NCBI GenBank assembly: GCA_937861125.1
Contig: CALMAY010000038.1
Span: 91,942 to 126,920, forward strand
Reading direction: 5' to 3'
Length of the DNA: 34,979 nt
Origin: an uncultured bacterium
GTDB lineage: Bacteria; Patescibacteriota; Patescibacteriia; Magasanikbacterales; UBA922
Positions 19,839 through 22,766 of the stretch are shown here, piece after piece (position 1 is the first letter of the stretch; every line of letters begins with the position of its first letter). Both the position numbers and the translations under genes were made by a program. The notes beneath the pieces were generated by a model that made no database searches, was not told the origin of the DNA, and saw nothing but the letters and a program-made list of their open reading frames with translations.

Positions 19839-20435
19839 TTAATTTTTAATCCGATTCTGCAACGCACTCCCAAGCGTCACTGCATCCGCATATTTCAAAT
19901 CACTCCCCATCGGCAGTCCACGAGCGAGACGAGAAACAATAATTGATGGACGTTCTGCTTTGATCTTTTTCTCGAGATAGAGTGCTGTCGTTTCTCCCGC
20001 CATATCATGATTGAGTGCGAGGATGATCTCTGTCAGCCCACTTTCATGGAGACGTTTGAGGAGTTCTGGGATTTTGAGAGATTTGGTATCGTCTTCATCT
20101 GGTGAGAGTGTGCCACGCAGCACGTGGTAGCGTCCGCGGTATGAGCCACTCTCCTCGATCGCCTGAACATCCTGTGGCTCGCTGACAACACAAATAATCC
20201 CGTTGTTTCGTTCACGACGGGAGCAGATGAGACAGGGGGACTGGTCTGCGAAGTCCTGACAGATTTCACAGCTGCGCATGGTGCTCATGAAATCTGTCAA
20301 CGCATTGATCAGACTCTGTACCTCTTTTTTTCCAGATTTGAGAAGATAAAAAGTGTACCGTTCAGCAGTGCGTTCACCGACGGATGGGAGGCGGGAGAGG
20401 GCGCGGATGAGTTGCTGAACTGGTCTACTGTACAT
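19839..20435 (-). CDS. recR: Recombination protein RecR
   Basis: RecR acts with RecO (and RecF) to load RecA on gapped DNA. The 198-residue protein shows the helix-hairpin-helix (LSRLPSVGERTAERYTFYLL), the Cys4 zinc finger (CEIC...CLIC), the Toprim start VVSEPQDVQAIEESGSYRGRYHVLRG, and the C-terminal SRLARGLPMGSDLKYADAVTL. Length is normal. Its usual partner ybaB is upstream, but separated by an inserted four-helix-bundle gene. No SD is seen: the region before ATG 20435 is the repeat-derived sequence. Confidence 0.96.
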   Translation of the reverse strand: MYSRPVQQLIRALSRLPSVGERTAERYTFYLLKSGKKEVQSLINALTDFMSTMRSCEICQDFADQSPCLICSRRERNNGIICVVSEPQDVQAIEESGSYRGRYHVLRGTLSPDEDDTKSLKIPELLKRLHESGLTEIILALNHDMAGETTALYLEKKIKAERPSIIVSRLARGLPMGSDLKYADAVTLGSALQNRIKN

Positions 20436-20461
20436 AGTTTGCGGAGTTTTAGAAGTTGACG

Positions 20462-20475
20462 AAGTTTTCGAAGTT
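20462..20475 (+). repeat. Left 14-bp inverted repeat flanking the four-helix-bundle gene
   Basis: AAGTTTTCGAAGTT, exact inverse of AACTTCGAAAACTT at 20870-20883. A degenerate second unit (GGAGTTTTAGAAGTT) lies just to its left, 18 bp apart. Confidence 0.75.
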
Positions 20476-20827
20476 ACCTAAGTGTTTTGATGAGGCTGTT
20501 TAATCCTGCGCCGATAATCATGTATTCTGATCTAGCTTTTTCGTATCGTTCTTTTTCTATCAACCCGAGATTGTAGAGAAATTCAAGATTGAACAATACT
20601 TCGTCGCATGAACCGTGTGATGTTCTGAGGAAATTTATAATGTCTTTGTTTGATTTTCCTCGAGCATACCCTTCTGCAATATTTGAAGGAACTGACCGCG
20701 CTGCTCGACGAATGTCGTCTGCTATATCGTACTGGAGATACTGAGGAAGTGATGAGGTCAGTTTGTATACCGCAATTGCCGCTTTGAACGATCTGTTGTA
20801 TACATCTAAATCTTTATATGTCCCCAT
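20474..20827 (-). CDS. Four-helix-bundle protein (S23 / 23S rRNA intervening-sequence protein family)
   Basis: From ATG 20827 the 117-residue protein matches the S23/avd-like four-helix-bundle family: YKDLDVYNRSFKAAIAVYKL, YDIADDIRRAARSVPSNIAEGYAR, FLRTSHGSCDEVLFNLEFLYNLGLI. The family is best known as ORFs in intervening sequences of 23S rRNA and as free-standing genes, with a proposed nucleic-acid-binding role. Here it sits between ybaB and recR, genes normally adjacent, and is bounded by perfect 14-bp inverted repeats; its stop codon overlaps the left repeat. No SD. Confidence 0.88.
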   Translation of the reverse strand: MGTYKDLDVYNRSFKAAIAVYKLTSSLPQYLQYDIADDIRRAARSVPSNIAEGYARGKSNKDIINFLRTSHGSCDEVLFNLEFLYNLGLIEKERYEKARSEYMIIGAGLNSLIKTLR

Positions 20828-20869
20828 ACATACAAAAAACAAAACTTCTCAAACCTCCTTAACTCCTCC

Positions 20870-20883
20870 AACTTCGAAAACTT
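20870..20883 (-). repeat. Right 14-bp inverted repeat flanking the four-helix-bundle gene
   Basis: AACTTCGAAAACTT on the plus strand; it overlaps the ybaB stop codon (20882-20884). Degenerate GGAGTT/AAGTTT units extend toward the inserted gene. Confidence 0.75.
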
Positions 20884-21172
20884 ACAAAGAAGGCATCCCT
20901 GGCATGTCTTTCATTTTTGTAGCCAAAGTACGTTGGAGTGTTCCCATGGCATCTTTGTGTGCTTCTTTGATTGCTTTTTGGAGTTTATCTTTTTTGTCTA
21001 CAGCGAGGAGACTGTCATCAATCGCAACGCCTGTGATCATGAATGTACCGTCTACGGTGATAGCAACACCATCTTTGGTACCAGTAGCAGATTCGCCACT
21101 GAGCATGTCTTGGAGGACTTTCGCTTTGTCGCGCATGTCTTTGAATTCTTTGAGTTTGCCGAGCATTGACAT
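20882..21172 (-). CDS. ybaB: YbaB/EbfC nucleoid-associated protein
   Basis: A small DNA-binding protein of 96 residues: MLGKLKEFKDMRDKAKVLQDML helix, short sheet (GVAITVDGTFMITGVAID), then a C-terminal helix (LQKAIKEAHKDAMGTLQRTLATKMKDM). This is the YbaB fold and size. It lies between dnaB and recR on the minus strand. The ATG two codons downstream is an alternative start. Confidence 0.9.
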   Translation of the reverse strand: MSMLGKLKEFKDMRDKAKVLQDMLSGESATGTKDGVAITVDGTFMITGVAIDDSLLAVDKKDKLQKAIKEAHKDAMGTLQRTLATKMKDMPGMPSL

Positions 21173-21222
21173 AGATTTAAAGATTAAGATTAAGATTGAG
21201 ATTAATAATTAAGTGTAATACT

Positions 21223-21317
21223 AATATACGAATTCATTCGAATTTGACGAATGCTTGTAAGTTACGTTGATGTATCTTGTAAGTATATTCGTTAAATTCG
21301 CATGTTATTCGTATATT
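21223..21317. repeat. Long imperfect inverted repeat between dnaB and ybaB
   Basis: Arms AATATACGAAT...CGAATTT.ACGAAT (21223-21252) and its inverse (21287-21317) pair over about 24 of 30 positions. The loop holds a direct repeat CTTGTAAGT. An adjacent tandem run of AGATTA-like units lies at 21178-21205. Confidence 0.75.
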
Positions 21318-21326
21318 GGTATTGCT

Positions 21327-22766
21327 TTAAAATGTTGGTGGGCCACTTGGTTTTGGCGGATTTGGTGCCATCGGCGGTGGTGGCGGTGCGTGATGAGTGT
21401 CGAGGTTGCGGTATGATGCGCGTGATTCATCAAAGAAGACGCGTGCAGTACCGATAGGTCCATTACGATGTTTGGCGATGTGGATTTCACCCAAATGTCG
21501 TTCGTCTGGTGGGATATCTTCGAGACGATAGTTACGATCTGCTGCTTTGCGATAGATAAACATTACGACGTCCGCATCCTGCTCAATACTACCAGATTCA
21601 CGCAAATGTGCCAACTTTGGAATCGCTGGTTTGGTTTGCTCTACCGCACGAGAGAGCTGACTGAGGGCGACGACGGGGACATTGAGTTCACGAGCGAGAC
21701 CTTTGAGACCACGACTGATTTCTGAGACCTCCTGTACACGGTTGTCACCGCCACTGCTTTTGCTTCCTGATTCCATCAGCTGCAAGTAGTCGATGATGAT
21801 GAGTCCCAGTCCATGTTCGGCCATGAGACGGCGCGCTTTGGTACGGATCTGCATGACTGTCGCACCTGGCGTGTCGTCGATGTAGATTGGTGCCTCGGAG
21901 AGGATACCCATTGCACGACCGATACGAGGAAAGTCATCACTGCCTGGTTTGTCAGATAAGTTTCCTGTACGCATCTTCCAGAGGTCGACCCCTGCTTCGG
22001 CACACAGCAGACGGTCCACGAGCTGTTCTTTACTCATCTCCAGAGCAAAGACACCAACACCTGTTTTGTATTTGGTCGCAGCGTGACGGGCGATATCCAT
22101 CGCGAGAGATGATTTACCCACCGCAGGACGAGCAGCGAGAATGATGAGGTCAGATTTTTGGAGTCCACCCAAGAGATTATCAAGTTCTCGAAAACCAGTT
22201 GGGACACCACGGAGTGTGCCTTTGTTTTTGTGCAGATCATCAATACGTTCAAAGGCGTCAGAGAGAATCGTACGCACATCGACAAATGATTGTTTGAGAT
22301 GTTTATTGCTAATGGCAAAAATTTGCTGTTCAGCTTCGTCGAGCACACCGTCTACTTCACCAGAAGATTCGTTGTATCCGAGTTGTGCGATTTTGTCAGC
22401 AGCAAAGAGAAGTTTGCGTAGTGTCGCTTTACGCTCAATAATAGCAGCATAGTCTTTGGCATTGGTCGCTGTGGCTACCATGGTCGAAAGTTGCGCGAGA
22501 TAACTGCGTCCACCGATACGTTCGAGCTGACCTTTTTCTTCGAGACGGTTGGCAAGTGTCAAAATATCAATTGGTTGACTTTTGCCGTAGAGTTCGACGA
22601 TGGCCGCATAAATATCACGATGATTGTTTTGGTAGAAATCCTCTGCGTCGACAATATCAGCGACCGCCATGATCGCATCTTTATCAATCAAAAGAGAACC
22701 GAGCAGTGATTTTTCTGCTTCGATGTTTTGAGGTGGAATGCGTTCGATGGGGCGGAGGTCAGTCAT
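21327..22766 (-). CDS. dnaB: Replicative DNA helicase DnaB
   Basis: DnaB is the hexameric helicase that unwinds DNA at the fork. The 479-residue protein has the N-terminal primase-interacting domain (PPQNIEAEKSLLGSLLID), the linker, and the RecA-like C-terminal domain with Walker A ARPAVGKSS (212-220), IYIDDTPGATV, Walker B GLIIIDYLQLM, ALSQLSRAVE and the HRNGPIGTARVFFDE end. The tail is proline-rich (HHAPPPPPMAP...), less conserved and probably disordered. Its leader contains the 20-bp imperfect hairpin at 22786-22870. No SD is obvious before ATG 22766. Confidence 0.97.
   Translation of the reverse strand: MTDLRPIERIPPQNIEAEKSLLGSLLIDKDAIMAVADIVDAEDFYQNNHRDIYAAIVELYGKSQPIDILTLANRLEEKGQLERIGGRSYLAQLSTMVATATNAKDYAAIIERKATLRKLLFAADKIAQLGYNESSGEVDGVLDEAEQQIFAISNKHLKQSFVDVRTILSDAFERIDDLHKNKGTLRGVPTGFRELDNLLGGLQKSDLIILAARPAVGKSSLAMDIARHAATKYKTGVGVFALEMSKEQLVDRLLCAEAGVDLWKMRTGNLSDKPGSDDFPRIGRAMGILSEAPIYIDDTPGATVMQIRTKARRLMAEHGLGLIIIDYLQLMESGSKSSGGDNRVQEVSEISRGLKGLARELNVPVVALSQLSRAVEQTKPAIPKLAHLRESGSIEQDADVVMFIYRKAADRNYRLEDIPPDERHLGEIHIAKHRNGPIGTARVFFDESRASYRNLDTHHAPPPPPMAPNPPKPSGPPTF

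Follow-up and report, generated by a model that had tools for sequence, protein, structure and literature searches.

A PF05635 gene between inverted short-repeat arrays as a probable minimal mobile DNA element of bacteria

Introduction

The intervening sequence of the Coxiella burnetii 23S rRNA carries an S23 protein of family PF05635 and is called a selfish element in the part of the report that deals with it (PMC4990558). Here we describe a related gene in a 34,979-nt stretch of DNA from an uncultured bacterium of the Magasanikbacterales (Patescibacteriota), hereafter the window, where it separates ybaB from recR. The window copy resembles the intervening sequence, as outlined in that part of the report, in protein family, a single open reading frame (ORF), a size of ~430 nt and terminal inverted repeats (PMC4990558). 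It differs in lying between protein genes, in having arms of 7-9-nt units and in giving no sign of selection for an RNA stem. Our analysis indicates that the window insert is probably a copy of a minimal mobile DNA element, widespread among bacteria and about 430-540 bp in size. The design is simple: a single PF05635 gene for a four-helix-bundle protein, framed by two inverted arrays whose units are 7, 8 or 9 nt long.

PF05635 proteins occur in 161 of 286 genomes of this phylum, and in candidate-phyla bacteria few proteins of unknown function are commoner; structures solved since 2006 have come without a function. The element provides a context for them, as the only product of a mobile element whose end arrays differ with the protein. 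Among established systems, repetitive extragenic palindromes with their REP-associated tyrosine transposases (REP/RAYT) and miniature inverted-repeat transposable elements (MITE) combine full copies with many gene-less inverted-repeat copies in intergenic DNA. The present element shares this mixture of full and gene-less copies; unlike those systems, it has no Y1 transposase, and its ends are arrays rather than a fixed palindrome.

TAACTGA repeats have been reported from Beggiatoaceae, Cyanobacteria and Bacteroidetes, where they adjoin start codons and some extend over upstream gene ends; the author considered horizontal transfer, and the passages on the repeats offer no mechanism (PMC4679880). 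GGGAATC or (GGGANTN)n repeats of Xanthomonas and GGGGA(C/T)T repeats of Nostoc are presented, in the text devoted to them, as G-quadruplex-forming and generally without mobile-element association, and 70 inverted pairs are reported from one X. campestris strain (PMC4692102). The element described here appears to be the source of several of these published, unexplained intergenic repeats (TAACTGA, (GGGANTN)n and GGGGA(C/T)T). For intergenic heptamer repeats that earlier papers treated as regulatory or structural, in cyanobacteria, Beggiatoaceae and xanthomonads, one origin is thereby offered.

Architecture of the element

On the minus strand, the window reads dnaB, ybaB, PF05635 gene, recR. The PF05635 gene (20474..20827, minus strand) encodes 117 aa from an ATG at 20827, or 122 aa from an alternative TTG start at 20842. 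In profile searches, the translation from 20842 matched PF05635 (E 1.1e-28, 100 bits, cut-off 33.8) and TIGR02436 (E 1.9e-30, 105.3 bits, cut-off 24). The predicted fold (mean pLDDT 95.9), a four-helix bundle, matches 2gsc (TM 0.94), 2rld (TM 0.81) and the Avd protein 4dwl (TM 0.77). This protein is the sole product of the window element, which encodes no known recombinase. The element sits between protein genes and not inside an rRNA gene, and Rfam gave no matches in the 15 loci scanned, the window's locus (L004) among them.

The gene is bounded by perfect 14-bp inverted repeats, at 20462..20475 on the recR side (AAGTTTTCGAAGTT) and at 20870..20883 on the ybaB side. Each shares two bases with a stop codon, namely the gene's own TAA (20474-20476) and that of ybaB (20882-20884). 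An earlier note, made from the letters alone, had described a 117-residue S23-type gene between ybaB and recR, outside rRNA, as the only product of an element with perfect 14-bp repeats overlapping both stop codons. The family profiles and those of both neighbours agree with this description, the coordinates of the repeats are confirmed, and the inserted DNA at the plasmid sites described below, which comprises arrays and gene, bears out the single product. The repeats are not due to chance, since 1000 dinucleotide-preserving shuffles gave no perfect inverted repeat of at least 14 bp between the flanks, the longest being 12. None of 300 shuffles reached the score of 35 that the flanks have for complementarity. 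Within the assembly, the exact 14-mer is unique to this locus, and with one mismatch it recurs at 4 further sites, versus 3 for a reversed control pattern.

These 14 bp are the outer, best-matching part of imperfect arms of ~45 nt that consist of short quasi-tandem units. The 5' arm, on the gene's upstream side (20840..20884, minus strand), reads TAAGTTTTCGAAGTTGGAGGAGTTAAGGAGGTTTGAGAAGTTTTG on the gene's strand, with the ybaB stop as its first bases. The 3' arm (20436..20475, minus strand), its inverse on the downstream side, reads AACTTCGAAAACTTCGTCAACTTCTAAAACTCCGCAAACT and ends flush with the recR ATG. The units are degenerate, roughly 9 nt long and AGTT-containing; the assigned period of 9 has an autocorrelation of only 0.51. 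Tandem 7-nt units of the TAACTGA or GGGANTN kind, present in relatives, are absent from the window's own arms. The perfect 14-mer is a remnant of array-like arms and not the essential feature. The window copy looks like an old member of its class, since its units have degenerated and the arms now match perfectly over just 14 bp.

Comparable arms surround other PF05635 genes. The window's assembly (G000) contains seven such genes, six of them with complementary flanks (automatic score of at least 28) and a different unit for each, for example GGCTTAAGA (L002) and ATGATCNN (L003). The seventh (L005) scored 16, and its complementary pair, located further out, was seen only by eye. In the window's family and order, 58 of 95 copies scored at least 35, versus 15 of 760 swapped flank pairs; one copy with an internal stop and insufficient length (L036) had been removed before scoring. 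Across several phyla and five sources, 174 of 249 copies reached a score of 30, versus 22 of 600 swapped flank controls. The latter set began with 259 copies, ten of which were dropped for length or an internal stop (L108, L134, L152, L153, L182, L227, L234, L236, L346 and L347). At this threshold, arms were found in 75/94 copies of the family and order, 55/77 from named genomes of many phyla, 21/30 and 10/18 in two Cyanobacteriota sets, and 2/4 on viral contigs; a set retrieved with XCC0516 gave 22/29. Other S23-type genes with terminal inverted repeats, which the earlier note had suggested looking for, are common. Its reading was right and too modest, as the class is widespread across many bacterial phyla.

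Periodicity within the arms is evident, with an identity of 0.477 at lag 7 (shuffled 0.311), 0.371 at lag 8, 0.341 at lag 9 and 0.382 at lag 14. Units measure 7, 8 or 9 nt, and each element keeps a single spacing. The span from arm to arm has a median of 472 nt (10th-90th percentile 427-543; 172 elements).

Five contigs from the viral collection IMG/VR hold PF05635 genes (L236-L240); of the four that were scored, two possess arms and two run counter to both of their neighbours. Phage records gave no match. Very long frames run across the PF05635 match in two genomes (G297:C4, L152, 481 aa; G084:C5, L153, 376 aa) and are possible fusions.

Filled and empty sites

Direct comparison of occupied and unoccupied sites is possible on cyanobacterial plasmids. 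Site A is filled in Trichormus variabilis plasmid C and in a Scytonema plasmid (L359, L370); six other records span its flanks at 97.5-98.1% identity with the element absent. In two of these six, L367 and L368, the empty sequence reads AAAAAGTAA-TTAACAAATAAAT-ATG, which is split in the filled ones exactly after GTAA. Two further states occur at this site: L369 holds a shortened copy with just the 5' arm and an N-terminal portion of the gene, and L375 a hairpin alone. Site B, a gene junction of Nostoc plasmids, is occupied in L360, and L366, L371 and L372 have no element there. At site C, the junction next to it, L366 has the element; L360 and L371 lack it, and their stop and start codons overlap as TAATG. 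Occupied and unoccupied Nostoc stretches share 90-99% identity around the sites. At all three sites the inserted DNA consists of arrays and gene plus a few bases, and the empty sites contain no array units. The arrays are the ends of the inserted unit.

These sites bear on two other explanations. One holds that the gene is an ordinary operon member whose flanks are terminator-like or regulatory spacers. Inverted repeats near stop codons are indeed common in bacterial operons, and 25 pairs of PF05635 loci have both neighbours in common and are vertically inherited. Nonetheless, the clean empty sites contradict this account, and presence is patchy, with 0-16 copies per genome and few occupied ybaB-recR junctions (see below). 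The co-variation of unit length with protein clade and the recurrence of one design across phyla also speak against it, so that we regard it as very improbable. The other takes the arrays for pre-existing host microsatellites into which the gene inserts, in keeping with TAACTGA-rich cyanobacteria in which gene-less arrays outnumber gene-bearing ones. Insertion into a direct array would, however, leave direct and not inverted flanking arrays, and the unit-free empty sites A, B and C contradict it there; we find it hardly credible.

At the ybaB-recR junction, 30 of 58 recR matches were made into loci, and a PF05635 insert is present in four (the window and three relatives). The other 26 are distant empty junctions of the kind that the earlier note had proposed as a check. 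None of them has a match to the window's protein; their gaps measure 10-142 nt in 24 cases, 179 in one and 922 in another. The same gene order without inverted repeats, which would suit mere spacers, was sought and not found, as the three gene-bearing relatives have arms of other sequence. The window's protein groups with that of L116, from another genome, and apart from the three others at this junction, which suggests at least two separate insertions here. Although different clades share junctions, ybaB-recR included, no hot spot is claimed, because 95 copies over roughly a thousand junctions (an estimate) would give some coincidences by chance. Gene-less hairpins with repeated units also occur at the ybaB-recR junction in two other genomes (L044 in G005, L065 in G022).

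In a Nostoc N6 plasmid, a PF05635 gene is interrupted by a stretch holding an array of the same unit (L373, 770-1094), as if a gene-less copy had entered the element.

Placement and the level of action

The element inserts where genes lie close together, at the stop codon of the upstream gene, and is nearly always oriented like its neighbours. Relative to that stop codon, the 5' arm starts at a median of -1 nt (149 elements); from the end of the 3' arm to the next start the median distance is 6 nt (150 elements). Within 200 nt, both neighbours are co-directional in 161 of 236 copies and both opposite in 4; the remainder show a mixed arrangement or lack an 80-aa ORF within that distance. This count rests on ORFs, not annotated genes, and leaves out the copies of one cyanobacterium (G453) discussed below.

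Such sense orientation would also fit a role in RNA. The insert could be an intervening sequence at the RNA level, whose arms form a stem cut by RNase III that frees the gene's mRNA, with the array units as a by-product. The protein family is that of the rRNA intervening sequences, and for the Coxiella element the account gives terminal inverted repeats that form a stem of 28 bp, which RNase III cuts in vitro (PMC4990558). A maintained stem should tolerate G-U mismatches above A-C ones. The two are equally frequent, with 123 G-U versus 117 A-C in 83 elements of the family set (123 versus 121 in a recount of 84) and 134 versus 142 in 110 elements of independent sets, scored after the first by the same rule. 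An RNA stem as a maintained function is therefore rejected, and from their mismatch pattern the arms look like DNA-level ends that decay neutrally after insertion. Moreover, a stem needs neither arrays of period 7-9 nor gene-less single-direction arrays. We consider the RNA-level explanation unlikely, while a stem used only at the moment of movement may be compatible with the counts. The phrase "minimal mobile or intervening element" in the earlier note thus holds in its first half, on the evidence of the filled and empty plasmid sites, and finds no support from the mismatch pattern in the RNA sense of its second.

Partner enzymes

A mobile DNA element raises the matter of its enzyme. The window protein has the same fold as Avd of diversity-generating retroelements. 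Entries 2gsc and 2rld contain five chains each, in agreement with the rings of five that we take these structures and 4dwl to be. Homology of Avd with 2gsc is noted in the relevant part of a published account (PMC10053308). Avd acts with a reverse transcriptase and template and variable repeats, unlike the PF05635 proteins considered here. Reverse transcriptase presence is unrelated to that of PF05635 (17/32 PF05635-positive versus 13/27 negative relatives), and the relation of the Y1 transposase domain is weak (14/32 versus 6/27). Neither was accepted as a required host partner. Searches of the window's assembly (89.9% complete) gave no match to reverse transcriptase (PF00078) or Y1 transposase (PF01797), and neither occurs in G031 (99% complete). 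Therefore, movement needs another activity, supplied by the protein itself or by a general host enzyme.

An alternative is that the gene is a passenger of non-autonomous elements moved in trans by ordinary transposases, with incidental arrays. The genome of the cyanobacterium G453 provides an example, with near-identical copies (L339-L347, L244) of a C-terminally shortened PF05635 gene with AGGTTTC arrays in a different frame, which has ACTGAYGTTACGC ends outside the arrays and a TA duplication. In view of these other ends, the nine near-identical copies were not used for typical-element boundaries. The slight excess of Y1 domains among PF05635-positive relatives points the same way. At sites A, B and C, however, only a few bases lie between array and host, which leaves no room for other ends, and the two assemblies just named lack both enzymes. 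As a general account, a passenger gene is distinctly unlikely.

Unit specificity and published repeats

In a quick tree of the 95 proteins, with many forks open, neighbouring rows tend toward a common unit. The unit GGCTTANNN (spacing 9) occupies eight rows and TAGTTCA/TAGCCAA (spacing 7) seven; TTAGGTA, AAAGTCNNN, CACCTAAT and others also occur. Spacing (7, 8 or 9) changes 14 times on the tree, versus a mean of 29.9 and a minimum of 23 in 1000 shuffles (74 rows). Similarity of unit sequence, as 5-mer Jaccard index with pairs of any flank homology excluded, fell from 0.097 for proteins 60-80% identical to 0.033 for those at 50-60% and to about 0.022 at less than 35% (0.022 below 25%); an antisense control gave 0.008-0.016 (0.015 at 60-80%). 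Unit length tracks the protein tree, and unit sequence does so only among close relatives. From these binned values, unit specificity is seen to pass on with the protein yet to change fast. The plain correlation (Spearman only 0.075) was set aside, and the link rests on the binned and permutation results.

Arrays of the same units also occur without a gene. In stretches of G000 and G031 there are compact hairpins of this kind that lack a gene, one of which (L321:19615-19701) has the GGCTTA unit found at the L002 flanks. The same scan in G027, which has no PF05635 gene, returned 8 hits, all A/T-rich; the scan is a crude one, from whose counts no comparison of rates is drawn.

Runs of three consecutive TAACTGA units occur in 23 of 244 Cyanobacteriota genomes; the highest number, 464 overlapping hits, is that of G429, whose PF05635 genes number one. 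Of 30 such loci examined, none had a PF05635-like motif within about 1.5 kb. TAACTGA arms flank a PF05635 gene of one protein clade (L350, L351, L353, L355) in four of the five richest genomes (G429, G431, G571, G465), and in the fifth, G569, no such gene turned up. The unit of the published repeats is thus the arm unit in four cyanobacteria, and both occupy the same position at starts and upstream stops; unlike here, the relevant passages treat gene-less arrays as possible regulator binding sites and draw no link to a mobile element or PF05635 (PMC4679880). PF05635 is present in 19 of the 23 genomes with triple TAACTGA versus 95 of the 221 without. This co-presence is weak evidence because genome size is uncontrolled and four array-bearing genomes (G356, G477, G517, G569) gave no PF05635 gene; the arm sequences themselves are the stronger evidence. 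The same publication mentions, in its part on a TAACTGA-rich genome, a hypothetical protein (BOGUAY_0693) with 29 close matches there (PMC4679880). BOGUAY_0693 could be the PF05635 protein of that TAACTGA system.

The Xanthomonas and Nostoc repeats show a parallel case. The X. campestris strain with the 70 inverted pairs encodes XCC0516, the PF05635 protein of structure 2gsc. GGGANTN arms on XCC0516-like genes were predicted beforehand, and the best relative, L378 (64% identical), agrees, with (GGGATTC)n on one side and its inverse on the other. Its neighbours, judged by eye without a family search, are biotin carboxyl carrier and biotin carboxylase genes. L356 has GGGGA(T/C)T arms. The units flanking L378 and L356 correspond to the (GGGANTN)n and GGGGA(C/T)T repeats of the published description (PMC4692102). 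A search of open-licence PubMed Central full text, with preprints outside its scope, found no paper linking such repeats or arms to PF05635.

Proposed mechanism

We suggest a mechanism in which the PF05635 protein, which probably forms a five-membered ring as its solved relatives do, would bind array units, one or a few per subunit. It would pair the two array ends, direct placement of the copy and act on gene-less arrays as well. Arrays in which several units of 7-9 nt follow one another are what would be favoured by a ring whose subunits each have one binding site. Sense orientation within an operon would let the element be transcribed without its own promoter, and the stop codons in many units may limit damage to the upstream gene.

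A bolder form makes the four-helix protein the mobility factor of a new class of transposable elements, with lineage-specific units and no known recombinase or reverse transcriptase domain. The ring itself would read the 7-9-nt units on DNA, join the inverted arrays and insert gene-bearing or gene-less copies at gene junctions. We put this forward tentatively, as possible rather than probable. If true, widespread bacterial heptamer arrays would be footprints of this class.

Several observations weigh against a mobile unit defined by its arrays. Target duplications differ in length, with GTAA possible at site A, ATG at site C and an ambiguous state at site B. The G453 copies show that a conventional transposase can carry the gene. 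At score 30, 75 of 249 copies have no arms, and the phylum-wide Patescibacteria set has them in only 11 of 26; the copies are related, so that none of the counts represents independent events. Below ~50% identity, unit sequence is only weakly linked to protein (Mantel-type difference 0.0085; the null maximum was 0.0047). Finally, G569 combines 355 triple-TAACTGA hits with no PF05635 gene found.

Neighbourhood of the window copy

The host neighbours of the window copy were assigned by profile, ybaB upstream (20882..21172, minus strand; PF02575, E 2.7e-12) and recR downstream (19839..20435, minus strand; TIGR00615, E 5.7e-64). A second inverted repeat lies in the gap between dnaB and ybaB (21204-21336), with arms of 30 nt that are 77% complementary and 73 nt apart. 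It contains CGAAT-containing segments like those in the arms of L007, from the same genome, at a spacing that is not clearly periodic, and is possibly a gene-less copy.
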